Part shown: positions 5,743 through 62,660 of the stretch, piece by piece
How the letters are laid out: every line of letters starts with the position of its first letter
Position numbering within the stretch: position 1 is the first letter of the stretch
Source: Symbiodinium sp. CCMP2592
Taxonomy: Eukaryota; Sar; Dinophyceae; Suessiales; Symbiodiniaceae
Direction of reading: 5' to 3'
Length of the DNA stretch: 64,000 nt
NCBI GenBank assembly: GCA_905221615.1
Contig: CAJNDT010000003.1
Coordinates: 532,640-596,639 of the forward strand
The notes under the pieces: generated by a model
Database searches by the model: none
What the model saw: the letters and a program-made list of their open reading frames with translations, nothing else
What the model was told of the DNA's origin: nothing
Program-made: the position numbers and the translations under genes

Positions 5743-7185
5743 CTTGGGGCTTGGGAGGGCTTAGGCTCGGAGTCCTCGCTGCCAATTAGGAAGGGCTTCC
5801 CGGCCAGGGCAGAAGAGCAGAGTAGCAGGAGGAAGCATCGAGCCATCATTTCCCAGCGCATGGCCGTGGCCTAGAGACCCTCTAAGCTGCGGTAGGTGTG
5901 GTTGCAGTACGAAGTACCCTAAACCATGGCCTGTAACAAAGTCGGCTCTTTTCTTGTGGACTTCGGGTTGGGAGGTTGCTGCCTGCAGGCCAAACGCCTA
6001 ACTGTCACACACGTAGGTCGTGGGGGGCTGCAGCTGGAATTTGGAATGGGTAGGGTTCCCGGATACACTCAACTTCTTAACCTACCTCGTCCAACTGTTC
6101 ACGTCTCTGTTTCGTGTTCTTCAAAAAACGCCATCAGGTAGGCTGTCTGCCTCAGCTTCATGTTCCGGCTGTGGTGCACATTGAATCCGAAGCTTGAGTA
6201 AAGATCATTTGCGGGGTTCAGCCATCGAGCTGCGACATCGAACCGCTCAAGGTCCAGCTCTTTAGTCCAAGATTTCGAATAGTAGCAACAATGAAAAGAA
6301 TCTTTATGATAACAGTAACAACAATGATAGCAACAATGACAATTATGGTAGTAGTATTCATGATACCTATATTATAGACTACGGATCACTCCTAGACCAA
6401 CAGACTACAAAACTTTCCAGATCCTTGTCGAAGTCTTATGAGAGGACACGGCCAGCTCTTGGAAAAGTAACCAACAAGCTTGGCAAGCTTGAACAGATGC
6501 TATACATTGCTCCCTGAGATTGAAACCCGCAAACCTACGCCCTGCATGTGAATCACACACCCCTCTTTGGCTTTCAGGGAACGCTCGGTGTAAGGCAAGG
6601 CTCTGTTAAGGTGAGGGGCAAGGACTTGGGAGTATGCACTGAATTTAACCTAAATCCCCTACTCCCTACATCCTGCCTTGGCCTGGTGGAACTTGTTGCC
6701 GGGCACCCAAGACCCTAGTTGGATTCCTTAACCCCCAAAGACCATAGACGAGTCCCACACCCTAAACGTCCCTAAAACCTCTTATCTTCTAACACCCAAA
6801 ACCCCCCGGTCGCATCGCGTGATGCACCAAGTCGACCCACAGAGGAGGCAGTTTGGGCTTGGTTCTTTGGTTTCGGGTCTAGGGTTTTTTTTACAGTATG
6901 GTACGCCCTGGCGGCGTGTATTTTCGTGTGTTCATGTTTTCACCTGCGTTCGCAGATGGCAAGCTTAGCAAGCTTTTCACTTCCAACCACATTGTTTTAG
7001 ATGCATACAAATACGACGTGTTGTGAATTGTTACTTTGAATTTCCACGAAACCATTGACATGACCTGACCGAATACTTGTCCGAGAGATAAAGTACAGGA
7101 CAATCGTTCAAAAGAGATCCCGAAGGTGGAGCGCATAAGGGCACGGCCTTAAGGTGTGGCTGTGGGCATGGAGGCCTGGAGGCCT
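5743..7185. other. No gene recognised
   Basis: Non-coding DNA with a degenerate trinucleotide stretch (ACAATGATAGC-like) at 6285-6370. No open frame shows a domain. No RNA gene is visible. Confidence 0.5.
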
Positions 7186-7186
7186 C

Positions 7187-7284
7187 GGGGGGGGGGGGGG
7201 GGCGAAAAAAAAAAATTAAAAAAAATGGTGGGCTGCTCTCTGGTATTTTTTTTTTTTTTTTTGGCGCCCCCCCCCCCCCCCCCC
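7187..7284. repeat. G-tract/A-tract ... T-tract/C-tract inverted element, copy 1
   Basis: Sixteen G residues, then an A-rich tract, a 20-30 base spacer, an uninterrupted T tract and 18 C residues. The two halves are complementary in layout, giving a homopolymer hairpin. A second, unrelated-spacer copy is at 16778-16882. Confidence 0.85.
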
Positions 7285-8484: not shown

Positions 8485-8595
8485 CGTAGTAGTAGCAGTA
8501 GTAGTAGCAGCAGTAGTGGTGACATTAGTATTGGTATGAGTATGAGTATTAGAATTAGTAGCTAGTATTAGTACTAGTGTTAGTGTTAGGATTAG
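8140..8595 (+). repeat. TAG/AGTATT-type microsatellite
   Basis: A long degenerate array of AGTATT and TAG units with a pure (TAG)n core at about 8434-8485. Related text recurs at 17140-17480. Confidence 0.9.
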
Positions 8596-9121
8596 AGAGT
8601 GCCACGGAATACGGGCCCGTGTTTTCCGACAGGGCTTTCAGTTATCTTCGTGTTTTGCTGTAAACCCGTGTTGCAAAACACAGGCATCAAAGACAGCAAC
8701 TGACAGCCGAGCGTTTGAAGAGGCTGAGGTCGTGACCTCATGCAGGTCATATTCGTCTCATCGCGTACGACATGCCGCATATGTAAAACGGACGTTGCTG
8801 TGCAAGCACCTAGCAATACTTTTCCTTCGCAGTACGGACGTCCAGGCGACAGAAGTCGTCGCGAACTCTACTCATCGTCAGACTCCACATATGTTGTATT
8901 CTTGTTACTGTCGTTACTTTCAAACCACCCGACATGGCAGCACTACTACGCATGAAGTTGAAGCATACACTGGAACATGACTAATTACCGATGCGAAGAC
9001 ATGCCCTACTTCACATAATCGCATGCATACCTGTGTGGAAGTCGCTCTGACATACATGTGAAATCAGTCTGGAGTCTGTGATCATATGACACAGGAACAA
9101 AACAATCTGGACAGCACTATT
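8596..9121. other. 3' flank of the KDZ-like element; small hairpin, no gene
   Basis: A perfect 9-base inverted repeat, GTGTTTTGC and GCAAAACAC (8650-8658 and 8673-8681), has a 14-base loop. No terminal inverted repeat matching the right flank of the element was found. No gene is recognised. Confidence 0.5.
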
Positions 9122-10195
9122 CTACTTCTTCATGGCCTTGGACTTCAGATGGATTTTCCTGACGGAGCGGGACTTATTCTTCTTGGCAGAGGACGACGTA
9201 GACGAGGCGGGGCGACGACAGACATACTTGTGGGAAGTGGGCTTTCGCAGTACGCGAGCAGCCCGTGCGATTTTGGCCTTCGCGCTGAAGGCGTTCAAGT
9301 GCTTCATGTAGTTGCGTCGCATGAGAAGGTTATGCTTCTTGACGTAGACCAAGACAAAGAACATGTGCGAGTTCGTGGCCTTGGTGTTGAAGGAAGAGGC
9401 GTAGTTGCGGAACCAAGAGAAGGTTTGCTCGGCAATGGACGAGTTGACATTGCGAAGACGTAGATCCAGGCGCCGATGCTGCAGAGGCGAACATTCGCAC
9501 TTCGGAGAGTGGGCCCTGGCGTGGAAACGATCAATGCACCAGTACTTGATTTGCTTTAGTGGCTTTTGGGCCGTAGCATGCTTCAAGCAGGCGCACATTC
9601 TATCGTATATCACGCAATCGATCTCGGAGCCTCGCGAGACCACGTCGAGGAGCACGTTGGTGGCTGTCTCATTATTTTCCGGGTCTTGCATGGCAGACAC
9701 GGACAGGACGAGTCCGGTCGAAGGATCTACTGCCATAAACCAGCCGTTCTGTCGAAGAGGAGTCTTTCCATCCTTCCGTGGTCTGCCTGCATGTGCTGGA
9801 GGCGTCCCGGAGCATTTGGCAGCCACCTTCTGGTGCCCATCCATAACAACCTCCTTCACCAGTCGCCATTCTCTTTTGTTGAGCTGGTTGTCATGCCACC
9901 ATTTCCTGTACGTTTCCAGAAAGCCGTTCGACAGGGGGTTCACTATGTCGATGTTACACAGCTTCTTCTGGCAGGCAGCTTTGCCTTCTACGGCCCACAT
10001 CTCAGAACCTTCCTGTAGTACTGCGTAGTACAGTTGTACAGCACAGTACTCCTGGTCCCATCTGTGATGTTGGTCCGCATCGTCCCACAGAGTCTCAGCC
10101 TGCGCGAACGCAATGGCGTTGCTGCTTAGATTGTAACTGCGCATGGTAGTCCAAGAACTTTCTGCAGAAACCAACCTTGCTGTTAACGAAGACAT
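9122..10195 (-). CDS. KDZ-like DDE transposase domain (C-terminal part of the element protein)
   Basis: This 357-codon frame encodes an RNase H-fold transposase that would cut and join the element ends. Visible catalytic candidates are D119 in VVMDGHQKV, D198 in VIYDRMC and E256 in NSSIAEQTFSW. Between the last two is CIDRFHARAH (D222, H225, H229) followed by C233 and C235, a His/Cys cluster. This layout (DG..., YDxxC, FHxxxH...C, N-S-[I/V]-x-E-Q) is what I know from KDZ-superfamily transposases with CxC5/CxC6-type cysteine clusters. The C-terminus is strongly basic (KKNKSRSVRKIHLKSKAMKK), consistent with nuclear import. The natural protein does not start at its first Met: similarity carries over from the upstream frame (FCRKFLDYHAQL) into SSNAIAFAQAETLWDD, so a frame change lies near 10100-10150. 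Confidence 0.75.
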   Translation of the reverse strand: MSSLTARLVSAESSWTTMRSYNLSSNAIAFAQAETLWDDADQHHRWDQEYCAVQLYYAVLQEGSEMWAVEGKAACQKKLCNIDIVNPLSNGFLETYRKWWHDNQLNKREWRLVKEVVMDGHQKVAAKCSGTPPAHAGRPRKDGKTPLRQNGWFMAVDPSTGLVLSVSAMQDPENNETATNVLLDVVSRGSEIDCVIYDRMCACLKHATAQKPLKQIKYWCIDRFHARAHSPKCECSPLQHRRLDLRLRNVNSSIAEQTFSWFRNYASSFNTKATNSHMFFVLVYVKKHNLLMRRNYMKHLNAFSAKAKIARAARVLRKPTSHKYVCRRPASSTSSSAKKNKSRSVRKIHLKSKAMKK

Positions 10196-12488
10196 ACTCC
10201 ATGTCCTCCAGCGGCATGGTGTGGAACTTGTGACCCTCCACTGTGCGGAAGTTGTAGTGGTGCGTCGTTCGACAGGACTTGGACGAGCATCTCTTCGACG
10301 TGGTAACCACGGGTTGAAGGCCTTCTAGCGTGTAAAGACGACCAGTGACCTCGTCCCGACGAGCCAATGGAGCTCCACAATCACAACATTCTGTGAGAGA
10401 TGTCGTGATCTGCTTTCTGCTGGCTGAGGCGTCCTTCGATCTTGCGTTGGCTGGTCCTTTTCCAGACAAGTGGTACTCGGCACCGTTGGGAAGCTCAGTG
10501 GATGTGTCAATGTGCAGCACCTGGAAGTAATATAGATTTGTCGCCGTGTCGACACCTTCCATGAAAGTCTGAATGGACGCCCAGAGCATGCAGCCTCCTG
10601 TGCGGCTATCCGCAATCAGAACGCCACCGGTCTCTGGGAAGAGAACGCCCCACCAGTGATATTCTTCGTCTCCGATCAACTCCAAGCACATCCACTTGCT
10701 CATTCCAGACTCTTGTGCATCCATGGTTTGCTTGCTTACGAGTGTCATGCCACTGGCTATGCCGTCGGATGCATTGTCACGCATGTAATCATTGAGCCTT
10801 GCTGCTGAAAGTCCAGTTTCATCTACAACGAGCTTGTCGAAGAAACATGGATCCAGGTCATCGAACAAAGCAAGCATGGCGTGCACCAAGCAGTTTCCAT
10901 GTAGAAGAGCACGGTCGCCGGATTCGGGTACAGCACCTTTGCGCAATAGTAATCGAGTGAAGCCCATGTTTACTGAGTTCCGCGGCCAGGACTTGATCTC
11001 CACCTCGTGCAAATCATCAGAAACGGTCTCACACATCTTGGCAATTTCAAGCTCATGGTAGAAGCCATCACATCGAATGTACGCTCCATCGAAGATGAGA
11101 ACATTTACGCGATTTCCGAACGGCGCAATGATTTTTTCCAAGAGCTCGGCCTCATCGAAAGACAGCATAGCGGACAATCTGCTGAATTCTGGGTTTCGTC
11201 TGTCTGCATATAGCGTCGACCACGTCTTGGCAGAACCGTGACCGAGAAGTAAGTCTGCAGCCCTCTGAACCTCGTCGCAGAGTTTCAGAAGGAACGGTGC
11301 TTCCACGGAGGGTCGGCCGCCGTAGAAGACGCGGATCAATTCTTTCTTGCCGAAGTCCATGGTCTCCTGAGTGTAGTCCGCAAGGCACTTCCGCCAGGCC
11401 CGATAGTTCTCCGTGAACAGACTGAGCATGACAAACTTGCGAGGATCCCAGAAGCCGCACTTCTGCAGTCTTGCCACCAAGAGACGTGGATGGCAGCAAG
11501 CTACATCCACTTCGGCACAGAATGATCCAAAAGCTGCGTCTCTGGCTTCCCGCGTCAATTTTTGTCCTGCGGGACCTCGGGCCATGCATCGTCCGTAATG
11601 TGCTTGCTGATAATATTCTTCGTGTAACACAGAAAGATGCTCGACACGGTCGCCATCACGTTCATGGCGCTGAATATATACTCGGAGAAGATCTTGTCGG
11701 CGATCAGTACCTCCATGAGCATAGTCAACAAGCGACATCATGTCTGCCGTTTCACTTAGAGAACAGCAGGTTCGACTAACAGACGAAGACATGGTCAGAA
11801 GGTTGGCACTGTGCTGCTCCATATAGCGATGTTCTGTCTCATACGTTCCAGGCTCCCATTTCTCTTGAATGTGCAGAAGATCGAAAGGACACCCCCAATC
11901 ATTGAACGTGCCGAATACGGTCGCCCCCCCGTACCTTTCCATGCATTGCGTGAGCAAGTTCCAATCCACCAAGAGCTTCTCGAAGCAACCCGAGTCCAGC
12001 TGCCGCAGGAGTCTAAGGGACGCATAGTCGACGGCCTCAACCAGTGTGGACATCTTTGTGCGACGGCCCTTACTCGATGAAGCGGCACCCGGCAGATCTT
12101 GTATCTTCATGATGAGATACTGCTTGACAAGGCGCTTAGCTGGTGTATTGGAATGAGCTATCTTCACCAAGTCATTCGCTTCGTCCACCTTGACATCCCC
12201 GGATCCGGGCGGCAAACAGGCATTGCCCGAAAGACATGTAGCGAGCCAGTCCGTATCGGTAACGAGGTCGGTGTGGACAGAACCAAGGTCCTGGATCATC
12301 GCCAAGCACTCATTCATGCTGTTTTCCTTGAAGAAAGGAATACACCACTCACGCAGAAACAGCGCAGCCGTAATGGGGTGTGACAGGTAGTATGTGAGTG
12401 TGTCTTGTGGAAGAAGCTTGTAGATACCCTTTGTGTGATCAACACATTTCTCATCTGTGGTGAAAGTGCTTTCCCCAGACGAACACAC
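10095..12488 (-). CDS. Polymerase-A/TV-Pol-like region, cysteine peptidase domain and zinc cluster
   Basis: This 797-codon frame continues the helicase reading frame upstream. Residues 1-60 (DTLTYYLSHPITAALFLREW) resemble the tail of SF3 helicases. Residues 310-475 carry three palm-like blocks: EVDVACCHPRLL (D328, H333, P334), KKELIRVFYGG (381-391) and VNVLIFDGAYIR (D467, G468). Their order fits polymerase-A-related TV-Pol enzymes of mobile elements and the Sputnik virophage. Residues 531-630 look like a papain/OTU-type peptidase: C533 in HGNCLVHAML, H611 in EYHWWGVL and D627 in IADSRT. Residues 701-744 form a cluster, CCDCGAPL then RCSSKSCRTTHH, typical of the region before a KDZ transposase. 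The polymerase call is by motif order only and is tentative; the peptidase triad is a sequence-pattern inference. Confidence 0.62.
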   Translation of the reverse strand: MCSSGESTFTTDEKCVDHTKGIYKLLPQDTLTYYLSHPITAALFLREWCIPFFKENSMNECLAMIQDLGSVHTDLVTDTDWLATCLSGNACLPPGSGDVKVDEANDLVKIAHSNTPAKRLVKQYLIMKIQDLPGAASSSKGRRTKMSTLVEAVDYASLRLLRQLDSGCFEKLLVDWNLLTQCMERYGGATVFGTFNDWGCPFDLLHIQEKWEPGTYETEHRYMEQHSANLLTMSSSVSRTCCSLSETADMMSLVDYAHGGTDRRQDLLRVYIQRHERDGDRVEHLSVLHEEYYQQAHYGRCMARGPAGQKLTREARDAAFGSFCAEVDVACCHPRLLVARLQKCGFWDPRKFVMLSLFTENYRAWRKCLADYTQETMDFGKKELIRVFYGGRPSVEAPFLLKLCDEVQRAADLLLGHGSAKTWSTLYADRRNPEFSRLSAMLSFDEAELLEKIIAPFGNRVNVLIFDGAYIRCDGFYHELEIAKMCETVSDDLHEVEIKSWPRNSVNMGFTRLLLRKGAVPESGDRALLHGNCLVHAMLALFDDLDPCFFDKLVVDETGLSAARLNDYMRDNASDGIASGMTLVSKQTMDAQESGMSKWMCLELIGDEEYHWWGVLFPETGGVLIADSRTGGCMLWASIQTFMEGVDTATNLYYFQVLHIDTSTELPNGAEYHLSGKGPANARSKDASASRKQITTSLTECCDCGAPLARRDEVTGRLYTLEGLQPVVTTSKRCSSKSCRTTHHYNFRTVEGHKFHTMPLEDMEYVFVNSKVGFCRKFLDYHAQLQSKQQRHCVRAG

Positions 12489-13345
12489 ACGACGCGACGC
12501 TTCAATTGCTCACAGGAACGGCGACGATCGCCACTTTCCTCAATTGTCGGTATGTTCTCATAGTTGAGTTCCTGCACTTTCATGCTAGCGCCGAAGGTTC
12601 GCTTCACTGTAAAGCCATAGTTCACTCGCAGGTCGAGCTCTTCATTGACTACGAAGCGCTTCCATATGTCGGCTATGAAGCGTGACTTTTCGTCCATCTC
12701 CTGGATTCGAATGTTCGCCTTGTTCCAGGACAACCCTGCAGACTTCCGGAATTCTGAACGGTCTAGAAACACTCCACAGTCCAAGGTTGAGCTTGCTTCG
12801 CTGCCAAACAAGGCCTTATCCAGGATGGCGTCCATTCCCTTGCCGCTGCCGCCTTTCCCCACCAAGAAGAGAATCCTGGACGTGCAGACTTGTGCAAAGG
12901 CTGCTTTCATGAAGCATAGCTTAAGCTGCAGAGCGTGCTCGTTGTCAAAATAGACAGACTCCAGGAATGTTCGGAGTACATTGCGAAACTCCTGAATCGA
13001 GATGCCTGGGTGATTTTGCAGTGTCTTCTCGTAGAAGTACGGATAGCCAATGCGAAGGTAACAGTCATTTGCCGGACTTTTCGTGGACACCTGCCACTTC
13101 GCGTTGAGGTAGACGTCACTAAAGCATACTCCTTGTGAGCGAGGCAAGGCCGTGTCCCACTCTACGAGGAAGAGCTTCGAAAGCGGGGTGATAGTGCTGC
13201 AGTCATCATCCCACTGCTTCCTATACGACGCGATCATTTCTGCCACCCGTCTCGACCACTTCGCTGTCCATACCTTGTTGGAAGTTGTCACAGAGCTAGC
13301 TTTTGTTTGTTGGACATAAGGTAATTGGCCATGTGCGCTTCGCAC
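12314..13345 (-). CDS. SF3 (D5-like) superfamily 3 helicase domain
   Basis: This frame encodes a replicative ATP-dependent helicase of the SF3 type found in small DNA viruses, virophages and mobile elements. Walker A is FLVGKGGSGKG (residues 160-170), Walker B is IRIQEMDE (212-219), and motif C is VQELNYENIP with N261, followed by the arginine-rich GDRRRSCEQLKRR (272-284) where the arginine finger is expected. The spacing is normal for the family. Residues after about 287 are read in the wrong phase: the helicase tail continues in the frame ending at 10095, the switch lying in a short GTGTGTGT run at 12483-12490. The N-terminal 18-25 residues are likewise a phase artefact; the real upstream sequence is in the frame ending at 13288. 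Confidence 0.83.
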   Translation of the reverse strand: MRSAHGQLPYVQQTKASSVTTSNKVWTAKWSRRVAEMIASYRKQWDDDCSTITPLSKLFLVEWDTALPRSQGVCFSDVYLNAKWQVSTKSPANDCYLRIGYPYFYEKTLQNHPGISIQEFRNVLRTFLESVYFDNEHALQLKLCFMKAAFAQVCTSRILFLVGKGGSGKGMDAILDKALFGSEASSTLDCGVFLDRSEFRKSAGLSWNKANIRIQEMDEKSRFIADIWKRFVVNEELDLRVNYGFTVKRTFGASMKVQELNYENIPTIEESGDRRRSCEQLKRRVVCVRLGKALSPQMRNVLITQRVSTSFFHKTHSHTTCHTPLRLRCFCVSGVFLSSRKTA

Positions 13346-13512
13346 AGGAACCTTGCCATGTTCACAAGCTTCCGCACATCATCCTGGTACATGGAGTAGT
13401 TCTCGTCTGACCATACAAGATAAGCCTCCACCTTCTCCTTCATACCATCTCTTGGCTGGACGTCCGGTAGAACTACATCAGGGGGAGCTTCGTCAGCATT
13501 ATCCAACTGCAT
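13288..13512 (-). CDS. N-terminal piece of the helicase protein
   Basis: Seventy-four codons containing KEKVEAYLVWSDENY and VRKLVNMARFLCEAH, a helical region. It overlaps the helicase frame, and the most natural continuation passes from MSNKQK into TTSNKVWTAKW with a one-base phase change near 13290-13310. The frame stays open upstream of its first Met to about 13577 (protein text RFRAFSDMQLDNADEAPP), so the true start is uncertain and an intron or an upstream start is possible. No domain is recognised. Its role is inferred only from continuity with the helicase. Confidence 0.5.
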   Translation of the reverse strand: MQLDNADEAPPDVVLPDVQPRDGMKEKVEAYLVWSDENYSMYQDDVRKLVNMARFLCEAHMANYLMSNKQKLAL

Positions 13513-13604
13513 GTCCGAGAATGCTCGAAACCTTGGTGTGTAGGCAACAGAAACACTATTCTCAAAACATCTTCACTGCATCACTGCATGACTGACCGCA
13601 GAGT

Positions 13605-13805
13605 TTAAGGACACAACAGATTGCGACCACGCAGGCGCTTGGCAGGTGGAGGAGGGGCTTCCGGCGACGAGATGCCTGCACCCTCCGCAGGGTTTTGGGG
13701 AGCAAACTCAGGAAACTCTTCCTGCAGGATGTGCTCCAACTCGCCTGCCATTGTATCTGGCTGAGAAGGACTGGCCATGATGACAGCAGAGTGACGCAGG
13801 GACAA
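13605..13805 (-). CDS. Short acidic leader with NLS-like PAKRLRGR motif
   Basis: A 66-codon frame; an internal Met gives a plausible product starting MASPSQPDTMAGELEHIL. It is acidic (EHILQEEFPEF) and proline-rich, and ends PPPPAKRLRGRN, which resembles a monopartite nuclear localisation signal. It lies in line with the downstream element genes, 93 bases before the next frame, so it could be a first exon or a separate small protein. I do not recognise a family. The neighbouring plus-strand frames look like shadows. Confidence 0.4.
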   Translation of the reverse strand: MSLRHSAVIMASPSQPDTMAGELEHILQEEFPEFAPQNPAEGAGISSPEAPPPPAKRLRGRNLLCP

Positions 13806-14036
13806 GAGCGATGTGCAAGATTTGAGCTATCGTGGCAACTTCAAAGCAAGACAACATGGAAAGACAGCACTTCAGCATGGTGATCGCACACGGCTAGGGT
13901 CCGCATGGAAAACACGGCAGGCATGCAGACTATTGTTTTCTATCCAAAACCAAGCTGTCATGGGTGGTACCACGACTTGCAAAGCTTGCCGTCCACGTAC
14001 AATCCGATGTCCTGCCAACTCAGAGATAACGACCCT

Positions 14037-14447
14037 TCAAGCCGCCCAGATTATCGTCTGGACAGCAGCGACGAGAGCTTCCCCCCATTCCTGGTCGGAT
14101 AGGGAGTCTTCAGCGGGATCAGGGAGAGCATCGCGTAAATCTGGGCGACGTCGCAGAAGTTGTTCGTAATGGCGTAGCAAGAAGTTATGGGCCTCCTTCC
14201 GAGCAGTGTCCTCCAGTTGACGAAGGACTGTTCGGACCACGAACAAATGAGTCTCCCATGCACGTTTGCTAAGCATACTGCTCACAGGATCAGGCAATAG
14301 CCGATGTAGTTCTGGATATTTGTCGAACATATAGGCATTGTTTTCCACGAGCCGCCATATTGCCGTCCTGCGAGCATAAACACGCTCTGCTTGGGTTCTT
14401 GGAGTGTTGGTCGCTTGGAATCCACCATCTCTAGTAGGAAACGACAT
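14037..14447 (-). CDS. Uncharacterised protein with two internal helical repeats
   Basis: A 136-codon frame starting ATG AGC, product MSFPTRDGGF... onwards. Two copies of a roughly 55-residue unit are visible: the first contains FDKYPELHRLLPDPVSSMLS followed by a Trp, the second LRRRPDLRDALPDPAEDSLS followed by a Trp. The shared pattern is [KR]xP[ED]L[HR]xxLPDPxxxxLSxxxW, and both halves look fully helical. I do not recognise the family. It is co-directional with the helicase/transposase genes and lies just upstream of them, so it may be the first gene of the element, for example a DNA-binding or regulatory partner. That association rests only on position. Confidence 0.52.
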   Translation of the reverse strand: MSFPTRDGGFQATNTPRTQAERVYARRTAIWRLVENNAYMFDKYPELHRLLPDPVSSMLSKRAWETHLFVVRTVLRQLEDTARKEAHNFLLRHYEQLLRRRPDLRDALPDPAEDSLSDQEWGEALVAAVQTIIWAA

Positions 14448-14879
14448 CGGACCGGATCGCTCAAAGCGATTGCTACTTACCCTCAGCTACCTTGCATAGA
14501 GCGCGCTGCGGGAAGACATCCAATGCAGCAAGCTCCACTGAACATGCCTCAAGAAACTCAGGCCATGGCGGTACGGCTGTGGACCACGGCATTCATCTCG
14601 CGTCGCATCCGCCACATCTTGGAAGTATCGCATCACAGCAACTATAATGTTGCTGCTGCCTACAAACATTGAACGACCAACTTGATTAACGCAGAGTATA
14701 CTCCAGTAGCCATTTGCTGCTGAGGCATGTGTACTGACTCGAACTCCTTGTGCTTGTAATGGCTAGGAGCGTGTTAGGTGCAAAACGGAACTATTCGGTG
14801 GTGGCCGTCGTATCTCCAGGATACAATGACCTTATAGGCAGGATTCTGAATGGCGGCATACTCCGTATCGGGACCTCCT
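14448..14879. other. 5' flank of the element; no gene
   Basis: No domain-bearing frame, no clear inverted repeat and no promoter element can be named. This is where a right-hand terminus of the transposon would be sought. Confidence 0.45.
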
Positions 14880-14885
14880 TCTTGC

Positions 14886-15227
14886 ATGTGTTACAGAACT
14901 CGATGAAGCCGGAAGTTCTCTTAAGACAGCCCGCTGTGATATCACCACAGGCAAGCACGCAAACCATCTCCTGTTAGGGTTCGAAATCACATGCCCTCAA
15001 TTCCCGCATCAAGCATGAGACAGAGGACAACACGGGATGAACAGATTCGATTTCGATAGGGGACAGCTTGATTTTTGCGTTTGTTACGGAACCCAAGGAA
15101 ACTGGAAGTTCCATCAAGCCCGCCCGCTGTGATATCATCACAGGCAGACACATAAACCGTCTCCTGTTAAGATTCGCAATCTCACGCCCTTGATTCCCAC
15201 ATCGAGCGCTGGACAGAGAACGGCCCG
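14886..15227 (+). repeat. Diverged tandem duplication, period about 193 bases
   Basis: Two copies of one sequence lie head to tail. Matching landmarks are CCCGCTGTGATATCA at 14930 and 15123, CATCTCCTGTTAGG at 14967 and its counterpart CGTCTCCTGTTAAG, and the ATTCCC[GA]CATC[AG]AGC blocks. Identity is roughly three quarters by eye. There is no coding capacity. Confidence 0.75.
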
Positions 15228-15483
15228 GTGTTCCCAGACCCTGCAGGGGTGAGCCGATACACCCCTTTAGGGTTACTCCTGTGGGAGTGTATAGACCAGT
15301 TCAGGCCCGTGGGATCTAAGGCAACGCCCTGCACACGGACAGCAAGTGTTTTGTTCTGCAACGAAGAGAGAGCTTGTGTCAAGTCGGTAAAACCACTTGA
15401 GCTACTGAGCAACAGACATATATACATGTGAGCATATAGCCATGCCATTGCTGAAAGTACCTACCCCGTTGGGAGTTTAGGCA

Positions 15484-15655
15484 AACAAGGAACAAGGGAC
15501 AGGGGGGACAGGGGGGACAAGGGGACAGGGGGACAAGGGGACAGGGGGACAGGGGAACAGGGGGACAGGGGGACAGGGGGACAAGGGGACAGGGGGACAG
15601 GGGGACAGGGGGACAGGGGGACAGGGGAACAGAGGGACAAAGGGACACGGGACAA
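15484..15655 (+). repeat. G-rich minisatellite (ACAGGGGG)n
   Basis: About 18 units of GGGGGACA/GGGGAACA of 8-10 bases on a G-rich plus strand. It yields artefactual Pro/Ser/Cys frames on the other strand. G-quadruplex formation is plausible. Confidence 0.93.
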
Positions 15656-15983
15656 CGTATCTGTATTTATTCGGTATGTTTTAATACACAAACCATGTGA
15701 TGTTTCGCATGTGCATACGTGCATATGTAGTCCAGCATGTGTGTACAGCTGTCTTGAAACATGTTCACACATACATGCTTATTCAATAGTGCGTGTCCGC
15801 ACGTGTATATATGTCTATTTGTTCGCTTTGTGTTATACTCGTACTGCCTCGTCTATACGATTTCTACTAAAGCTATCCAACATAACGTGGAGCTTCCAGA
15901 CACGGAAAAAGCACTCCACATAATGCGAAGTTTTCAGACACAGGAAAAAGCCACAAACAGAAAGAACTCGCGTTTATGATTTC

Positions 15984-16445
15984 CTAGTTCATGCCGTCAT
16001 TCCGTGCTGACAAGAATTCTTCATCTGGAAAGAGATCGTTGTGACAATGGCGCCAATGCCAATTCTTCGCATTCTTGACAGTCTTCGACTGTTTATGGTG
16101 TTCTCGCGAACGGTGAAACTTCTGCGAATGGCCCCAATACTGCCATTGATGCTCTTTGCGATACTCTTTATGTAACTTGATTTTCTCTTTTTCTTCCCGC
16201 GCGTGTGCTTCCGCTCGTAGACGTGCTATCTTCATTCTCTCAAGTTCCAATTCAAGCTGCTTCTTCTCAATGTCCTTGTCAGTGGAGCTGGGCTTCGAAG
16301 GCAAATCCTTCGCCGTCCTTTTGGCAGTGATTTTCTTTGTCGTCGTAGCAATGGAACCACTGCTCTGGTTGCTGCTTTTCGATTTCTTGCATTTGCATCT
16401 GTCGCTGCCCCATGCGCCACATGTCGAGCATCGGCGTCGAGCCAT
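15984..16445 (-). CDS. Small Cys-cluster, coiled-coil protein of unknown function
   Basis: The chosen start (base 16445) gives about 153 residues beginning MARRRCSTCGAWGSDRCKCK. Four cysteines in CxxC...CxC form a compact zinc-ribbon-like or knuckle-like cluster. A Lys/Ser/Thr linker follows, then a charged coiled coil (DIEKKQLELELERMKIARLR) and a His/Trp-rich tail (HQWQYWGHSQKFHRS). The frame extends upstream to 16529, but those residues are hydrophobic and Cys-rich and look like leader noise. The opposite-strand hydrophobic frame is its antisense shadow. I do not recognise the family. No introns or mobile-element context are evident. Amino-acid patterning suggests a real gene, but this remains moderate. 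Confidence 0.45.
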   Translation of the reverse strand: MARRRCSTCGAWGSDRCKCKKSKSSNQSSGSIATTTKKITAKRTAKDLPSKPSSTDKDIEKKQLELELERMKIARLRAEAHAREEKEKIKLHKEYRKEHQWQYWGHSQKFHRSREHHKQSKTVKNAKNWHWRHCHNDLFPDEEFLSARNDGMN

Positions 16446-16529
16446 TCTGAGAACTATCCCTACGGACGATGGCTGAACGTATACTTTTGCAAAACTGCAG
16501 CAGCATACACACGACGCATACGGTAACAT

Positions 16530-18018
16530 CTCAAGCTCACAGTGGAACCGTAATGAGAATAGAGACGTGTGTACAGTAGCAACGCATCGACAGCTTGTCT
16601 ATTGTAGGTTGTTGTTTTACTGACAATATTTGGTAATATGTATTACTGTATATACAGTACAAATACAAACATACACACTCCCACATACTGACGGCCGTGC
16701 ATCGCGCAGACGCTGAGGCCAAGACCTGCAGCGAGCAGTACCCAGCGTACAAACAAAGGAAAAGAATGCGCCCCGTGGGCGGGGGGGGGGGGGGGGGTCG
16801 GCCAAAAAAAAAAAAAAATATAATATTTTTTTTATTTTTATTTTTATTTCTTTTTTTTTTTTTTGGCCGGCCCCCCCCCCCCTCCACCTCCTCCGAAGAT
16901 CTCCTAGCGAGACTACAAATACACCCTGCACCGTGGCATGTTAACGAATTTAGTACCTTCATGGTTCGAATTCGATCGCAAAGGCTATGAATAAGGTAAA
17001 GTCCAAGCCAGTGAAGTTCCCAGCACGCCCGAAAGCGAAAGATGCATCAAGACCACGTGCCTTGTAACCCTAAAAACGCAGGCCCGTATTATGTTGTTTT
17101 CTGTAGGATTAATATGTATTGTTCTTGGTTCTATTCTTAGTACTGCTGTCATTGTTTGTAGTAGTCCTAATCCTGGTATCAGTGTTCATATGAGTAATAG
17201 TTTTGTGGTAGTATTGATATTAGGATGGGTATTGCTTTAGTACTAGTATTGGTATTGGTATTTAGTATTAGTATTAGCATCAGTATTAGTATTAGTATTG
17301 AATAAAAGTATACATATCAATAATAGTAAATATGAACTCGTGATTATGTTCGTGCTGGTGTTAGTGCCAATGTCGATGTCAATGTCAGTAATAGTACTCG
17401 TGTTAGTATTAGTATCAGTCTGAATGCTGGTTTTAGTATCTGTTTATTATTCACAGAAGTGCTGGTATTAGTATCAGTATTAGAAATAGTTTTGATATGT
17501 GAATATACTGATTGATTCGTACATTTTGAGCTTAATATAATAATACAGTAATGTATTCGAACAATAGTATATTTGCAGAGTTGAAGATTGCGCGAATATA
17601 TTAGTACGTTGGTGCATGAGTACATTAGTATATTGGTGTATCATGATATTCGTATGTTAACGTAGTAGTATATTAGTATATTATTATAGTGGTCTACTAC
17701 TACATTTACTATATTCGTATTTTCCCTAATAGCTTATAGGTATATCAATATGTTGGCATAATGTTGGAAACTGGGTATATGACAAATTAAATACGAATAT
17801 ACTACGTTAGTACACGAATGCATTGATATATTTGCTTTTCAGATAGTGGTATGTATATCTGCGGACATTAATATACGCAGGTGTCTGTTAGTATTGGCAT
17901 TAATATCAATATGAATATGACTATTGGTAGGCGTAGGAGTATTAATGTTAATAATAGAATTAGTAATGTGCATATTCGTAATAAAAGCATTAATATAAAT
18001 GTCAACGTTAGTGTTAAA
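16530..18018. repeat. AT-rich microsatellite region with one homopolymer hairpin
   Basis: AGTATT/TAGTATT text like that at 8140-8595 fills 17100-17480 and 17600-17990, together with ATATTAGTA-type degenerate repeats. No gene is recognised. The hairpin at 16778-16882 is listed separately. Confidence 0.8.
16778..16882. repeat. G-tract/A-tract ... T-tract/C-tract inverted element, copy 2
   Basis: Seventeen G residues, TCGGCC, an A tract, an AT-rich centre, a T tract, GGCCGG and twelve C residues. It has the same architecture as 7187-7284. The GGCC/GGCC boundaries also pair, giving a long hairpin. Confidence 0.87.
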
Positions 18019-56550: not shown

Positions 56551-59500
56551 TTAAACCGTACTCATCCTTGAGTCCTTTGCCTCTGTACTATCCGGTGTCT
56601 CCGGATCAACTGGTCCAGTCATAGTAGAACTTCGCCTTGATCTTGCTCTATCATCATTCACTTCTTCACTGTGGGCTCTGAACCGTCTTCCTTCACTTGT
56701 GCCTTCTCGCCTTTCTTGAGCAAGTCTTGCTCTTTCTTCAATTAACTCGTCGAGGCCTCGATCTTCTTCCTGTAGTTCCTGGGCCAGTACCGGAGCTAGT
56801 TCTTCTGCAGCTCGTCTGGTCCCCTCGAGATACGCCTCGTAGGTGAGGCGGGCTACTCCTTCGAGTTCTTGTTGGCCTCTGGTTTCCAACGAAGCTTTTC
56901 TTTCGCTGAACGTCATGTTATTCCATTGGTCTTCTGTGACATCTTCTGGTCTTGGATATAACACGTTCCTCTCCGGCTGGTTATCTTCTTGTTCATGGCT
57001 TTCTTGTTCTTCTTCACTTCCATTGCTGTCATACCTCTGTCGCCAAACACTTTCCGCATGATCTCTTATGCATTCCACACAACTGTGATTTATGTGGTTC
57101 CTTCTGCTTCTTGCGCAGCGGTTCTCATTGCACCATGTGCATATCTCACTGCACACTTCCGTGCTCGTTCTTCTTGTTGAACTGCCGCGGCTTTCCCGGT
57201 CCTCTGGGTGACACACCCAACATGAACGGCATCCCTTTTCTTTTGCAGCTTCCAAAGTCATCTCTTCTGTGGATGGTGGAGGGCTCCACCACTTGCAACA
57301 TCGTTTATGATACACGTGCCTTGTCGGGTAGACATATACTGGCTCGCCAGTCCTTCTGATCTTCAGCTTGTTGTACAGGACTTCATATCCTTTCACCACT
57401 TGTTGGATAAGAAAGATTATTCCCATCACACTTAACGTGATCATCAGGATATCCATCACTTCCTCCATTCTTATGCTTGTGGCTACAGCTTCCTGACTTC
57501 TCTTGCTGTGGGCCGAAACGTCTGCGGTCGCGGTTACTCCATGAATGTACAGCATCCATAAAACTGTGCCCACATAGGCTCCTGAAATTTCTTTGTTTGC
57601 CAGTCTTCTTCTAGCTTCTCCTTTCTCTGCTGGGTGCTCCATTTCTCGAGCCTCTTTTGCTTCTCTCTGGTCCACAACGGCGTCCACTTCTGCCGTAACT
57701 TCTCTTCTTCTTTCCTCGGCTGCTTCCTTCATCTCTTCCAGCTGCCGTACCTTCTCGGCCATAATTTCTCCTTGCTCTCTGATCTTTTCTTGGACGTCTT
57801 CAGGTATCTTGATGCTTCCTTGCCTTAACGCTGCGAAGTTAGCTTCTTGAGACTTCTTCAACCTTTCTGCTTCTTCTGCCAATTCTTCTGCAGTTTTCTT
57901 GAACGTCTCCAAATCTTCTTCCTTCTTGTCTTCCGGTGCTTCTTCTTCATCATCCTTTTCTGCTGACTCGCTTTCTTTGGATTCATCGGACTCTGGATCC
58001 GACGCTGCTTCACTTTCCTCTTTTCCCACTTTGGGATTCTCTGGCTGTTCTTCCTTCTTCTTTTCAACAGATCTCACTTCGTACTGCTGATTGATTGCCT
58101 CTACCTCCTTCCAGAGGTCTTCAGTGCTTGGCCTTTGTGCCTGATCTCTTTTAAGCACTTTTTCGAGGTAAGTTGTAGCTTCGATGCTTCTGCTACGTTC
58201 TGTGATCATATACTTGACTGCTTCGTCATCTGCCATTGCTCTTGTCCTATCTTCTTCTTTTTCTTCTTCCTTCAGGACTTCTTTCTTGAGCAAAATTGCT
58301 GCGCTTGCAACTTTATGCATAATCGCTGACATGAACATGCACAACAGTATGCAAACTACACTTGCTCTTCCCAGTCCTTGTTCTCCTTCTTCACCGAATC
58401 TTCTTGCTTCGGCCAATGATATCAGCACTGCGGTCGTAACCGTCTGGATAATCCTTGTAATCATCCTTTCATCAAATCTTGGAACACTTCTTGTTCTTGT
58501 TCTTCTCACTTCAGCTTCTTGAACTTCTTGTTCACTTGGCGTCAGAAATTCACCTGTATATCCTAGGCTTAGCATATACTTTCGTATCTTCTCCCGTGTC
58601 AGGGATTTGGTCCCTAGATCTGAGGGATTGTCCTTTCCTGCTATCGCCTTTATGATAAGCTTCGGAATTCTTTGGATCCATAAAAGGTCTACTTGTAAAT
58701 GGCGTGCTCTTCCTAAGCCTTTTCTTGAGATTAACTGTCTTGAGCTTGACGAATCAATGTATAACATCAGTCTTGGCTCAATTCCTAGGATTCTTGTCAG
58801 CAATCCTTTCAGGAATACACCTTCGCTTAAGATTGACGTCGCTGCGATTGTCTCAGCTTCGCAAGATGACAATGCTACGCTTTTCTGTCTCTTGCTTTGG
58901 AAATGAATCAAGTTTCCATTCACCATGATCACTCCGCATGAAACGCTTTGTCTTGACTCTCGGTCCGCTGCCCAGTCGCTGTCGCTTATCACTTCTATGA
59001 GTGCTGGCACTTTGTAGTTGTCCCTTTCGTTTCCTTTCTCACTTCTGTTCTTCACTTCGAGGAAACTTTTTCCAGGGTAACTTCCTTGATGTACCAGTGC
59101 GAGTTCTGGCGATCCTTTGAGATACTTTCTAACGTACCTTAACATTTCCATGTCTGCTTCAACGGGCGATGCGAGCTTTGTTGACAGTTTCTTCAAGACG
59201 TACATAATGTCTGGCCTCTCGGGCGCGAGATACAGTAAGATTCCTACTCCTTTTCTGAACGTGTGGTGATCTTCTGTACTCAGTGGTGTCATTCCACCTT
59301 CTTTTGTCTGAAACGATCTTCCATTGTCCGCTGGACACGGTAGTTTCTTAGGGTATGCTCCTTCCAGCTTGAGCACTTCTACCAGTCCTTCGATGTACTT
59401 TGAGTTCATCGTGATCTCTACGTTTCCATTTCCCATTGACTTGAAACTTCTCTTCAGGCAACTCATTGATCCTTCATTCTCATCCATTGGTCCTTCCACT

Positions 59501-60882
59501 TTGATCTTCAATCCTTTGCTTCTCAGGAATTCGACCAACTTCTTGAATTCTTCTTTTGACGCGTATAGCTCCATGTCATCTACATGACTCAGCACGATTA
59601 TTCCAAATCCTTCTTTGTCTGGCTTCCTTGAGAATAGTGCCGGGGGTCCACTATCACTTGCTAACCCATACTCTTCTAGGTAGCTTTTCAACTTCCCGAA
59701 CCAAGCTGCACTGCCGATTCGCTGTCCGGGCAACGTGTACCCGAGTTCATAAATTTCTCCATCGACTTCGACAATCGTCGGCTCTTCCTGCTCCACCATT
59801 AAATAGGCGTCACCTACATCAATACTGCCGAGTGTGTACCCTTCTGAAGATGCGAACAGGGCTGAAAGTAGCTTCACTGTGCTTGCTACGCCGGTTGGCG
59901 AAAACAAACTTGCAATGTCCGTATCACCTAACCACTTGAACTCTCTTGCTACTAATCGTCCTCTTCTTCTCCATTCTTTGTCCCTGTGCCTCCAATCGTA
60001 CACTATCTTTGTCGAGAGAAACTTGTACTTCGAAACATCTGTTCCTTTTGGCAACTTGTTCAGCACTTTCATCTTCTCAAGTCTTTCCAATTCGTGCTTC
60101 TTGGACACTCCTTCGACTTTCTCCATTTCTTCATCTGCTAGTTTTGGTGGTCCATTTTCGAAATCATTCGACCATTTTGGCATGTCTTCTGGTATCTCTT
60201 CTTCACCATCTGATTCTTGCCATTCTTCTTCTTCATCGAACTGTGCTTCCATTTCTTCAAATTCTTCCAACTCGACTTCTTCGTCATCGTGATATTGCGG
60301 AAGTTCTTTCCTCAGGAATGGTTCTATCTTCTTTACGCTTCTCATGTCGATGACTCTTCTTACCGAACTTGATGATTGTCCCGAGGATCCTTCACCAATG
60401 GCCACAAACTTTTCTGGCCGTTCTTCGGCTTGCGTTGTGCCTTCATCCATTTTCTGCCTCACCGCCTCTGGCTGCTCGCCTTTTTCAAGGTTCCTCTTGG
60501 GCGACGATGGCGGAGGATTCTCTCCTCGAATCAGCTCTTCAGAATCATCACTCCTTTCGCTTCTTCTTCTCGTGACTCCTTTTCCACGACTGCTTGAACT
60601 GCTGCTTGTTGATCCTGAATGTCCTTCACCTGGATCTTCATCCATGTCTTGTTCAGTCTCGCTTGGCGGATCTGATGCTGCCTCTTGGCTTGGGCTATAA
60701 TCCTTCAATTCATCTTCTTGCTCTTGACTTCTTTCTCTTCTTGGAACCAACTCTAGCTTGTCACCAGTTGCTATCTCGATTCCACTGTGTGGTGGCAATC
60801 GCTTCGTTGATTTTCTTCCTACCAACATATCTTGTGTGTAGTTCCACGGTGTCCCTGTCGCTTCTGCTAGCATCGACATCAT
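56551..60882 (-). CDS. Copia reverse transcriptase-RNase H with membrane/Cys-rich C-terminal extension
   Basis: 1443 codons. Residues 1-280 are an acidic linker. The RT starts near 290 (KIVYDWRHRDKEWRRRGRLV); motif A is SIDVGDAYL (D355) and the active site is LSHVDDMELY (D435, D436), with HVDD in place of the usual YVDD. RNase H has VISDSDWAAD (D634/D636), SSCEAE (E675) and LYIDSS (D710). After about 780 comes a 650-residue extension unusual for Copia: a hydrophobic segment near 841-865, a long charged coiled coil (870-1095), hydrophobic segments near 1101-1117 and 1143-1163, then a His/Cys module (YHKRCC, H1192, C1195, then GCRSCWVC) that resembles Ada-type zinc sites, more Cys (CTWCNENRC, CVEC), and an acidic tail. 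The extension could be envelope-like, membrane-anchoring or regulatory; that is inference. The first residues overlap the integrase frame, so the first Met is probably not used. Confidence 0.87.
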   Translation of the reverse strand: MMSMLAEATGTPWNYTQDMLVGRKSTKRLPPHSGIEIATGDKLELVPRRERSQEQEDELKDYSPSQEAASDPPSETEQDMDEDPGEGHSGSTSSSSSSRGKGVTRRRSERSDDSEELIRGENPPPSSPKRNLEKGEQPEAVRQKMDEGTTQAEERPEKFVAIGEGSSGQSSSSVRRVIDMRSVKKIEPFLRKELPQYHDDEEVELEEFEEMEAQFDEEEEWQESDGEEEIPEDMPKWSNDFENGPPKLADEEMEKVEGVSKKHELERLEKMKVLNKLPKGTDVSKYKFLSTKIVYDWRHRDKEWRRRGRLVAREFKWLGDTDIASLFSPTGVASTVKLLSALFASSEGYTLGSIDVGDAYLMVEQEEPTIVEVDGEIYELGYTLPGQRIGSAAWFGKLKSYLEEYGLASDSGPPALFSRKPDKEGFGIIVLSHVDDMELYASKEEFKKLVEFLRSKGLKIKVEGPMDENEGSMSCLKRSFKSMGNGNVEITMNSKYIEGLVEVLKLEGAYPKKLPCPADNGRSFQTKEGGMTPLSTEDHHTFRKGVGILLYLAPERPDIMYVLKKLSTKLASPVEADMEMLRYVRKYLKGSPELALVHQGSYPGKSFLEVKNRSEKGNERDNYKVPALIEVISDSDWAADRESRQSVSCGVIMVNGNLIHFQSKRQKSVALSSCEAETIAATSILSEGVFLKGLLTRILGIEPRLMLYIDSSSSRQLISRKGLGRARHLQVDLLWIQRIPKLIIKAIAGKDNPSDLGTKSLTREKIRKYMLSLGYTGEFLTPSEQEVQEAEVRRTRTRSVPRFDERMITRIIQTVTTAVLISLAEARRFGEEGEQGLGRASVVCILLCMFMSAIMHKVASAAILLKKEVLKEEEKEEDRTRAMADDEAVKYMITERSRSIEATTYLEKVLKRDQAQRPSTEDLWKEVEAINQQYEVRSVEKKKEEQPENPKVGKEESEAASDPESDESKESESAEKDDEEEAPEDKKEEDLETFKKTAEELAEEAERLKKSQEANFAALRQGSIKIPEDVQEKIREQGEIMAEKVRQLEEMKEAAEERRREVTAEVDAVVDQREAKEAREMEHPAEKGEARRRLANKEISGAYVGTVLWMLYIHGVTATADVSAHSKRSQEAVATSIRMEEVMDILMITLSVMGIIFLIQQVVKGYEVLYNKLKIRRTGEPVYVYPTRHVYHKRCCKWWSPPPSTEEMTLEAAKEKGCRSCWVCHPEDRESRGSSTRRTSTEVCSEICTWCNENRCARSRRNHINHSCVECIRDHAESVWRQRYDSNGSEEEQESHEQEDNQPERNVLYPRPEDVTEDQWNNMTFSERKASLETRGQQELEGVARLTYEAYLEGTRRAAEELAPVLAQELQEEDRGLDELIEERARLAQERREGTSEGRRFRAHSEEVNDDRARSRRSSTMTGPVDPETPDSTEAKDSRMSTV

Positions 60883-62608
60883 ACAGTGGTGTACACTGTC
60901 TTATCGTTCTGCTCTTGATGATTCCTTGTCTTGTGCTTATCAGATTCAGGTTGTTCACCGAGTCTTTTCCAACGAAGATTCCTTTTCTCCATGCCTCTCC
61001 CTTTTCTTTGACTTTAGGTACAGGCTTTGCCAATACTACGCTTCCCCATGGCGCTAATGTTCCTTTGTACTCTCTGTCGAATAATACTTCAAAAGGTGTT
61101 GATCCTTTCTTCACAACAAACCTATTCAGCAGGAATGCTGCATGTCTTGCTGCCCATGGATACAGCGTACTTTCTGAAGTGATCTTCACTTTCGCTTGTG
61201 ATTCAACTCCATACACCAGTGTCTTGGATAAGTTCCGAACTGTTTGAACCCATGTCTCAACTTGTAATCCTTGGTGTTCATCTGGTGCTACATCTTGTAT
61301 CTCTGTATCAAGATTCTTCATCTTTCGTATCCCCTGTACTTTCTTTCTCAGGGAAATCATTGCTGGTTCTGTGTCAGTTCTCAGAATGACCTTTGAATTT
61401 AACAGCATAAGTACTCTGCAAACTTCTTCGACAACGTCTGCCGTCACTTCTTTTGTCGCTACTGGAATGACATGTACGAACTTTGTTGCTTCATCAACCA
61501 TCACAAGTCCGATTGTCAATGCGTCCTTGTTGTCCTTTGTGTTCTCTTCATCTCGAGTTCCAGTGAACTTGAAATCCATTGAGACTAACGATGCTTCATT
61601 CTTCTTCTCAGGTACATCGAAATTGTCTTCTCTTGATCTTGTCGCTTGACAGCTTTCACACCAATCTGCTTTTGGTAGGTGCGTCAGTTCATGCTTCTTC
61701 CTTTCTTCCTCAGTTGGCATCTCTGGTCTCTTTTCTCCTTTTGGTTCTCTTGTGCATTCTAGTTCTAGTCCCTTGGAGATTTCAACCAATTCTTTCATCT
61801 TGTTTGCTGAAATAGCCTGCTTCAACCTTTGCCATATCTGAGTCTTGCTTCCAGTCTTTCCTATCTTCAGGAATTCACATGCTGTTCTCATCTCTTTGAG
61901 TGAACTTTCTGGGCTGAGTTCAACTCCTGCCACAATCATAGCTTCTTCCATCTTTTCTCCTAACTTTGGCAGTTGCTCTTCGATTTTCTTCCATTCTTTC
62001 ATTTCTTCTTCTTCAGGTGGTTCACTTGGAAACAAGTTTTCCATTGCTTCTGCTGCTTCCTTTTCCACCTGCTCCACGTTCTTCTTTGTATCTTTTACTT
62101 CTTTGTGAACCTCCATTTCCACGTCTGCTGCTTCCACTTCTTTCTCTTGTTCTTTCTTCTTCTTCTTTGAAGATGTTCTTTCATAATCACCATACTCTTC
62201 AAGTCCCAGAGACTTTCTCTCCAAGATCGTGATGATCACCGAGTTCTCTTCAACTGCGTTTATCGCAATCTCTTCTCGGTCTTCCCACTTCTCAGCACAC
62301 TCCACAAACTCCAGTTCGCTCCATACGATGTTGTCGCCATCGTACCTCGATACCAAAGTAGTTCTGAACTTGAATGCTTTCACATCATCATACGTGGGGT
62401 CATAAGTCACGTACTTATCATAATCGATCCTTGCTGGCTTCCCATCTGACATGAAAAACCATCCTTGATGATACTTCATCTTCTCGAAATCATCTTCCAT
62501 CTGCTTGATCAGCGTAAGCTTCCTCACTTGTGGTTCATCACTTTCAACCTTCACTTGTGCCCTGTAGATCTTGAGGTCCGTCACTGTTGAGTTTCTTGCA
62601 AACCTCAC
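60761..62608 (-). CDS. Copia integrase with upstream SAP-like DNA-binding module
   Basis: The frame is open from just after the TGA at 62666-62668 and its first usable codon (GTG) is at 62608. Residues 1-130 complete the protease-to-integrase linker; 140-220 are Lys/Glu coiled coil; 235-268 (SSLKEMRTACEFLKIGKTGS, KTQIWQRLKQAI) look like a SAP helix-turn-helix that binds DNA. The integrase zinc site is HELTHLPKADWCESC (H306, H310, C317, C320). Catalytic candidates are D345 (SMDFKFTG), D412 (ILRTDTEP) and E451 (LQVETWVQ). It inserts element cDNA into the genome in the nucleus. The real protein passes into the RT frame near 60880 (from TIRQCTPLYD into SMLAEATGTPWN); the last 25 or so residues before 60761 are out of phase. 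Confidence 0.87.
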   Translation of the reverse strand: MRFARNSTVTDLKIYRAQVKVESDEPQVRKLTLIKQMEDDFEKMKYHQGWFFMSDGKPARIDYDKYVTYDPTYDDVKAFKFRTTLVSRYDGDNIVWSELEFVECAEKWEDREEIAINAVEENSVIITILERKSLGLEEYGDYERTSSKKKKKEQEKEVEAADVEMEVHKEVKDTKKNVEQVEKEAAEAMENLFPSEPPEEEEMKEWKKIEEQLPKLGEKMEEAMIVAGVELSPESSLKEMRTACEFLKIGKTGSKTQIWQRLKQAISANKMKELVEISKGLELECTREPKGEKRPEMPTEEERKKHELTHLPKADWCESCQATRSREDNFDVPEKKNEASLVSMDFKFTGTRDEENTKDNKDALTIGLVMVDEATKFVHVIPVATKEVTADVVEEVCRVLMLLNSKVILRTDTEPAMISLRKKVQGIRKMKNLDTEIQDVAPDEHQGLQVETWVQTVRNLSKTLVYGVESQAKVKITSESTLYPWAARHAAFLLNRFVVKKGSTPFEVLFDREYKGTLAPWGSVVLAKPVPKVKEKGEAWRKGIFVGKDSVNNLNLISTRQGIIKSRTIRQCTPLYDVDASRSDRDTVELHTRYVGRKKINEAIATTQWNRDSNW

Positions 62609-62660
62609 GGGTACTTTTGCTGAACCTTTCTTCAGGTAAACATTGAACTGGTCTAGAGGA

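Follow-up and report, generated by a model that had tools for sequence, protein, structure and literature searches.

A KDZ transposon with a fused helicase, polymerase and peptidase in the dinoflagellate Symbiodinium

The minus strand of a 64,000-nucleotide stretch of the Symbiodinium sp. CCMP2592 genome (contig CAJNDT010000003.1, positions 532,640–596,639; hereafter the window, on the contig we label C3) carries a KDZ-superfamily transposon, and the evidence supports well that a helicase, a polymerase and a peptidase are fused to its transposase. The putative polyprotein of about 1,600 amino acids (aa) comprises, in N-to-C order, a D5-like helicase, a family-A DNA polymerase, a Josephin/papain-like peptidase, a cysteine cluster and a KDZ DDE transposase. 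With a replication module thus joined to its transposase, the element is probably self-synthesising, copying its own DNA.

One polyprotein in a bounded element

The 1.098-Gb genome was searched with the middle open reading frame (ORF) of the window copy, which gave at least 62 match rows at no fewer than 44 loci, and with the helicase part of an intact sister copy on contig C1046, which gave at least 85 rows: 68 clustered into at least 56 loci, and the other 17 lay at loci already included (L denotes loci, C contigs and P proteins). Among the matches listed, a helicase-query match lay within 4 kb at 41 of the 44 middle-ORF loci; about 75 residues are common to both queries. Because the matches at C313 and C18 are confined to this shared stretch or its vicinity, 39 of 44 is the safer count. 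Within the same lists, three middle-ORF loci lacked a helicase match and 15 helicase loci lacked a middle-ORF match, while uninterrupted frames of 1,566–1,680 aa without a stop were present in 13 of the 62 match rows, 12 of which were read. When 37 loci, all picked through the middle ORF, were searched by tblastn with the parts of L002, the helicase was found at 37 (partially at some, e.g. L004), the polymerase at 37, the KDZ part at 35 and the peptidase at 15. The two loci without the KDZ part are L032, which meets a contig end, and L030, whose similarity to its own family ends inside the polyprotein. Since the parts are found together across these loci and intact single frames exist, the helicase, polymerase, peptidase and transposase belong to one protein.

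Protein searches returned three overlapping lists of 34, 27 and 14 matches, the named ones from Symbiodinium, Cladocopium and Prorocentrum, together with Skav and s462 gene models. The same domain order recurs in the long proteins P0050, P0052, P0055 and P0056 and in P0010 of Cladocopium goreaui, and is kept in part in P0033 of Prorocentrum cordatum. In the distant relatives P0022 and P0033 the peptidase region is different or degenerate; by eye, P0033 seems to lack the Cys.

Element borders were set from near-identical copies at differing sites. The window insertion spans 8595..17103 (minus strand, 8,509 bp), with a left border common to the sister copy, termini resembling terminal inverted repeats (TIRs; GAGAGTGCCACGGAATACGGGCCCG... 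and CAGAAAACAACATAATACGGGCCTG...) and an identical 8-bp target-site duplication (TSD), TAGGATTA, flanking it at 8587..8594 on the left and 17104..17111 on the right. Both TIRs are annotated on the minus strand with lengths set by eye: the 3' repeat, GAGAGTGCCACGGAATACGGGCCCGTGTTTTCC..., at 8595..8630, whose GAGAsTG start is common to families A and B, and the 5' repeat, CAGAAAACAACATAATACGGGCCTGCG..., at 17068..17103. A 5' end at 16908, the point where window and sister diverge, was rejected given the TIR and TSD at 17103/17104. Four measured family B copies are 7,051–7,232 bp long (ends CAGTATGGTACGCC... and GAGACTGGTACGCC...) and two family A copies 8,420 and 8,467 bp (ends CAGAAAATAAGACATTACGGGCCCC... 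and GAGAGTGTAAGACATTACGGGCCCC...); within both families copies are mostly 93–99.9% identical.

The window copy is 99.46–99.47% identical to the C1046 sister across two long aligned pieces. The sister frame is open for 1,589 aa, whereas the window copy has lost 307 bp at 13292/13293 and is frameshifted twice, where ORFs meet near 12.4 kb and 10.15 kb; because of these three breaks it is probably inactive by itself. A sequence-only reading of the window had proposed a helicase, a polymerase-like part, a peptidase and a KDZ transposase in a single element, a combination that the intact frames, shared termini and TSDs support, and had suggested searching for intact copies of the same order; 13 open frames occur in this genome, and P0010 has the same order. 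Its nearly contiguous parts do form a single frame in relatives but are broken in the window copy. The span it gave, 9122..14447, was too small, and the 136-aa ORF at its right edge (14037–14447) is probably not a gene, because only the sister carries it among 12 sequences searched.

Folds and motifs of the enzymatic parts

The polymerase core is assigned to 10935..11786 (minus strand). Family-A polymerases are marked by two palm aspartates and by the K-x7-YG of the O helix. The corresponding columns hold the motif A Asp (D301, 11507–11505) in 33 of 33 rows, the Lys of K...YGG (K354, 11348–11346) in 32 of 32 with one gap, Y362 in 32 of 33, G363 in 33 of 33, and the FDG Asp (D440, 11090–11088) in 32 of 32 with one gap. 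Because such motif columns are kept among relatives that are otherwise only 35–63% identical, they reflect more than chance. The predicted structure matches the palm/fingers fold of family-A polymerases. The β-hairpin Arg that precedes the palm in TV-Pol polymerases has a counterpart in R273 (32/32), at the turn before a predicted strand (274–276), and predicted helices 188–202 and 238–251, partly at a predicted local distance difference test score (pLDDT) below 50, lie N-terminal to the palm and may correspond to a two-helix thumb.

The D5-like helicase part occupies 12314..13345 (minus strand), its N-terminal portion damaged in the window by the 307-bp deletion. Walker A (12859–12836) reads GKGGxGKG in 21/21 rows (one gap), and Walker B QEM, motif C N..NxP and RR are each present in 22/22. 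For the intact sister's helicase model, VIA rows 1–30 are all D5, E5, African swine fever virus (ASFV) PrimPol or SaPI5. Upstream, an N-terminal coding piece of the polyprotein (MASPSQP...KRLRG; 13608..13778, minus strand) is conserved by tblastn: among the 12 sequences searched it matches, in the right orientation, the sister and L022, L029, L031, L036 and L028 (non-sister E 1.3e-8 to 1.7e-4). A match in L033 was discarded because it lies on the wrong strand.

The peptidase part (10506..10901, minus strand) is matched by a papain/Josephin-like fold with a Cys-His-Asp triad: C at 10892–10890 (30/31; one Ser, two gaps), H at 10658–10656 (31/31) and D at 10610–10608 (31/31). Preceding the transposase, a cysteine cluster with near-invariant Cys columns (10284..10424, minus strand) weakly resembles PF18717 CxC4, to which 5 of 33 relatives gave weak matches (best E 0.04). 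P0057 carries a precomputed PF18718 annotation, yet our own Pfam scan returned only CxC4 at E 0.12.

The KDZ transposase (9122..10195, minus strand) is the only part of the window proteins matched by Pfam (PF18758, E 3.5e-6; 27.3 bits, above the cut-off of 26.6). Copies L017 (38.6 bits), L021 (32.8), L011 (27.9) and L002 (26.6, at the cut-off) are also matched, L004 falls under the cut-off (22.7) and L005 gives no match; of the proteins, P0051 scores 29.5, above the cut-off, P0050, P0055 and P0056 fall below it and P0022 has none. Candidate D-D-E columns lie at D 9841–9839 (18/19), D 9604–9602 (18/19) and E 9430–9428 (19/19), with a further conserved D at 9532–9530 (19/19); which of the D columns are catalytic is our presumption.

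All the motif blocks named by the sequence-only reading lie where it placed them, within 9122–13345 of the minus strand: the palm-like A, K...YGG and FDG blocks, the Cys/His/Asp pattern and the KDZ-like core hold in the alignment columns, and the structural comparison it called for returned both palm/fingers and papain/Josephin-like folds. Its SF3 (superfamily 3) helicase assignment stands for Walker A/B and motif C but not for the usual Ser/Thr after the Walker A Lys, and of its profile searches the KDZ part was matched but not the other three.

Several points weigh against the assignments and the self-copying that builds on them. The SF3 Walker A consensus is GxxxxGK[ST], and a Gly follows the Lys in 21/21 rows here; lacking the Ser/Thr, the helicase part is filed as D5-like by predicted fold and not as a canonical SF3 ATPase. 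The AAA+ core of its model (341–429) is of low confidence, with VIA root-mean-square deviations there of 5.0–7.4, and Foldseek matches to the Protein Data Bank (PDB) are modest for the helicase (best E 0.04) and for the polymerase (best E 8.8e-4, template modelling scores 0.2–0.3). Helicase, polymerase and peptidase had no significant sequence-level match in Pfam, PHROGs, NCBIfam (best E 0.015) or PDB sequences, and hhalign of the helicase–polymerase alignment against phage T7 polymerase gave a probability of 0.2%; the polymerase assignment rests for this reason on fold and motif pattern. Nor was the TV-Pol finger motif RxxxK found: in all 13 aligned rows the position four residues ahead of the conserved Lys holds something other than Arg. 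The peptidase is the least conserved part (24–31% identical when families C, D, A and B are compared), has Ser in place of Cys in one relative, and, as queried from the window family, finds relatives by tblastn at 15 of the 37 loci only. Since 31 of 33 aligned rows do have the triad columns, these misses reflect divergence. All three folds are predicted ones, and replication, excision and the protein activities are proposed from sequence and predicted structure.

Mobility, proposed self-copying and accompanying features

An exact 8-bp TSD flanks 12 of 15 insertions (L011, L013, L014, L015, L016, L019, L022, L029, L031, L024, L027 and the window copy), the one at L024 being weak as it lies within a TA repeat. 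This count leaves out L018 (flank common to L014), L023 (same 9.8-kb stretch as L022) and copies covered at one end only; the three misses are L012, with a rearranged 3' end, L037, whose flanks differ, and the C1046 sister, whose 5' terminus was not found. Near-identical copies at separate sites, with L011 and L012 at 99.89% identity, point to recent movement of the element family.

In the mechanism that we propose, the transposase would cut and join the terminal repeats, while the helicase and polymerase would replicate the element, probably as excised or circular DNA, with the result that copy number rises instead of a copy simply changing place. The polymerase may also prime, and the peptidase would either cut the polyprotein into its enzymes or strip ubiquitin from host proteins.

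In two family B copies without a TSD, L012 and L037, a 15-mer (CATACTGGAGACTGG) adjoins the 3' end of the element. It reads as the 5' and 3' element ends joined head to tail, with the junction between CATACTG and GAGACTGG, and is possibly the trace of a circular or tandem form, a lead and not a proof.

Selection was gauged from close pairs, because between-family ratios of replacement to silent change (dN/dS) are saturated in all domain rows but one. For L005/L010 the values are 0.12 in the helicase, 0.17 in the linker, 0.17 in the polymerase, 0.24 in the peptidase and 0.42 in the transposase, the last perhaps inflated by the early end of the L010 frame. In distant pairs the silent sites are saturated, and every domain shows fewer replacement than silent changes. 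Adding to the counter-evidence, some close pairs exceed 1: L005/L009 in linker (1.74) and peptidase (1.71), on very few changes, L011/L022 in transposase (1.61) and L021/L034 in helicase (1.35); further rows are far under 1.

The nearest rival to self-copying, which we consider unlikely, is an ordinary cut-and-paste KDZ transposon whose module fills gaps, repairs the donor site or finishes joined ends, making it host-independent in the unusual dinoflagellate nucleus. Plain cut-and-paste predicts TIRs and 8-bp TSDs just as well, and the available parts of the literature describe them for Zisupton and Cryptococcus KDZ1 (PMC12730594, PMC12810828); gap repair would also be feasible for a processive polymerase with a helicase. 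A D5-like helicase plus polymerase should nevertheless exceed the needs of gap repair, and virophages and polinton-like viruses (PLVs) use such pairs as replication modules, as far as the sections consulted go (PMC3671162, PMC11071308).

Descent from a virophage or PLV that lost its capsid and took a KDZ transposase as integrase is considerably less probable, and concerns origin more than present function. The nearest predicted viral structure is indeed the Zamilon virophage replication protein (E 2.8e-12), followed by Qinghai Lake virophage, giant-virus and phage proteins. The domain order is reversed relative to virophages, however; the ORF lists of the window element and L029 hold no capsid-like long ORF, though no capsid-profile search was made; and two scans of viral contigs, one queried by the window ORF and the other by alignment A3 (22 pattern matches, 0 confirmed), found no encoded relative. 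That unrelated elements lying nested or adjacent, or joins within gene models, merely brought the domains together is scarcely credible. In its favour, the window copy falls into three frames, and the public model P0001 omits stretches of the intact frames and does not reach their length. Against it stand the uninterrupted frames at 13 loci, the termini and TSDs common to the copies, and the long proteins elsewhere that keep the order.

The modules do not always travel together, a further point against self-copying, because the helicase–polymerase and KDZ trees conflict. In trees of 10 proteins (long-branch rows B_L011 and E_L017 left out; tested groups chosen after the trees were seen), a six-row group of the KDZ tree that includes families C and D (KDZ support 100/99) is rejected by the helicase–polymerase data (approximately unbiased (AU) test p 0.006). 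Conversely, family C groups with P0055/P0056 in the helicase–polymerase tree (support 99/99), which the KDZ data reject (AU p 0.0007). In our reading, families have exchanged transposase modules.

A second conserved gene lies within the element at 15984..16445 (minus strand) and is seen in other copies. Its 153-aa product, with CxxC...CxC near the N terminus, a charged, predicted helical stretch and the motif NDGxN at the C-terminal end, is possibly a binder of DNA or of the element termini. Among 12 sequences searched it was matched at E ≤5.4e-8 in the sister, in L026 and, from families A and B, in L022, L024, L029, L027 and L031, weakly in L021/L034 (E 0.012) and not in L028, L033 or L036. 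A GGGACAGG minisatellite (15496..15651) separates this gene from the polyprotein gene; in L029, an element of family B, there are frames that translate as a similar repeat. A G-run/A-run inverted-repeat unit at 16770..16890 has similar units in families A and B, those of family A in the 5' part; such a unit (G-run/A-run...T-run/C-run) also occurs outside the element, at 7166–7284. The terminal 31 bp of the window element occur alone, at 100% identity, at seven places (contigs C5383, C5118, C4929, C3079, C302, C246 and C86), perhaps as short non-autonomous derivatives. Elsewhere in the window, large ORFs at 56551–63998 (minus strand) with RVT_2 (E 1.6e-10) and a zinc knuckle (E 2.8e-6) mark a probable Copia-type retroelement, and many short arrays of the telomere-type repeat TTTAGGG/CCCTAAA are scattered over 634–38598.

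Comparison with known systems

By the usual view, DDE cut-and-paste transposons need their host to copy their DNA. If the self-copying reading is right, an element with helicase and polymerase in its transposase protein breaks this divide and offers a compact, testable model for the exchange of replication modules between transposons and small DNA viruses. The genomes of dinoflagellates, here a coral-symbiont alga, also gain a recently mobile, multi-copy element for study. We hold more tentatively, at somewhat short of an even chance, that self-synthesising DNA transposons of eukaryotes, so far Polintons and virus-derived elements, have here a third kind. Its polyprotein would unwind, prime and copy the element with a family-A polymerase, cleave itself with a Josephin-like protease and insert the copies with a KDZ DDE transposase, with a probable circular or concatemeric intermediate and with replication and transposase modules swapping between families. 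Among the open-licence papers listed by literature searches, none describes KDZ combined with helicase, polymerase and peptidase in its title or the start of its abstract.

Our comparison draws on parts of PMC12730594, PMC12477816 and PMC12810828 for KDZ elements and of PMC2579912, PMC3671162, PMC4642659 and PMC11071308 for TV-Pol and PolA–helicase proteins. The KDZ domain, TIRs and 8-bp TSDs, and possibly the adjoining cysteine cluster, are common to the present element and KDZ transposons: Zisupton has an 8-bp TSD (PMC12730594), and KDZ1 an 8-bp TSD, CxC1 and 241-bp TIRs (PMC12810828), against about 36 bp by eye here. Fungal Kyakuja, as described in those parts, has 7-bp TSDs and no TIRs. 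KDZ elements are portrayed there as carrying transposases with CxC and accessory genes such as TET/JBP, and a fused helicase–polymerase–peptidase is not among the features these sections describe.

The PolA-S3H (TVpol–helicase) proteins of virophages, PLVs and mobile elements likewise combine a family-A polymerase and a D5-like helicase in one protein, but with the polymerase N-terminal and the helicase C-terminal in the passages available (PMC2579912, PMC3671162), whereas the order here is helicase, polymerase, peptidase, transposase. The bacterial TV-Pol elements of Iyer et al. (2008) were proposed, in the portion seen, to be replicative transposons with a polymerase and a recombinase, sometimes with an RNase H-fold transposase gene nearby; they differ in being bacterial, in using separate genes with IS630/IS605 or resolvase enzymes, and, in that portion, in showing no KDZ (PMC2579912).

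Polintons/Mavericks are also self-synthesising eukaryotic DNA transposons with a polymerase, a cysteine protease and an integrase, but theirs are a protein-primed PolB and a retroviral-type integrase, and they have capsid genes. In the window element and L029 we saw no PolB, RVE integrase or capsid, but a family-A fold, a KDZ transposase and no further conserved long ORF, the capsid being judged without a profile search. Teratorn, a piggyBac–herpesvirus fusion, resembles the present element in joining a cut-and-paste transposase to replication machinery; according to the part of the account consulted, it does so as a 180-kb element in fish with a whole herpesvirus genome (PMC10175614).

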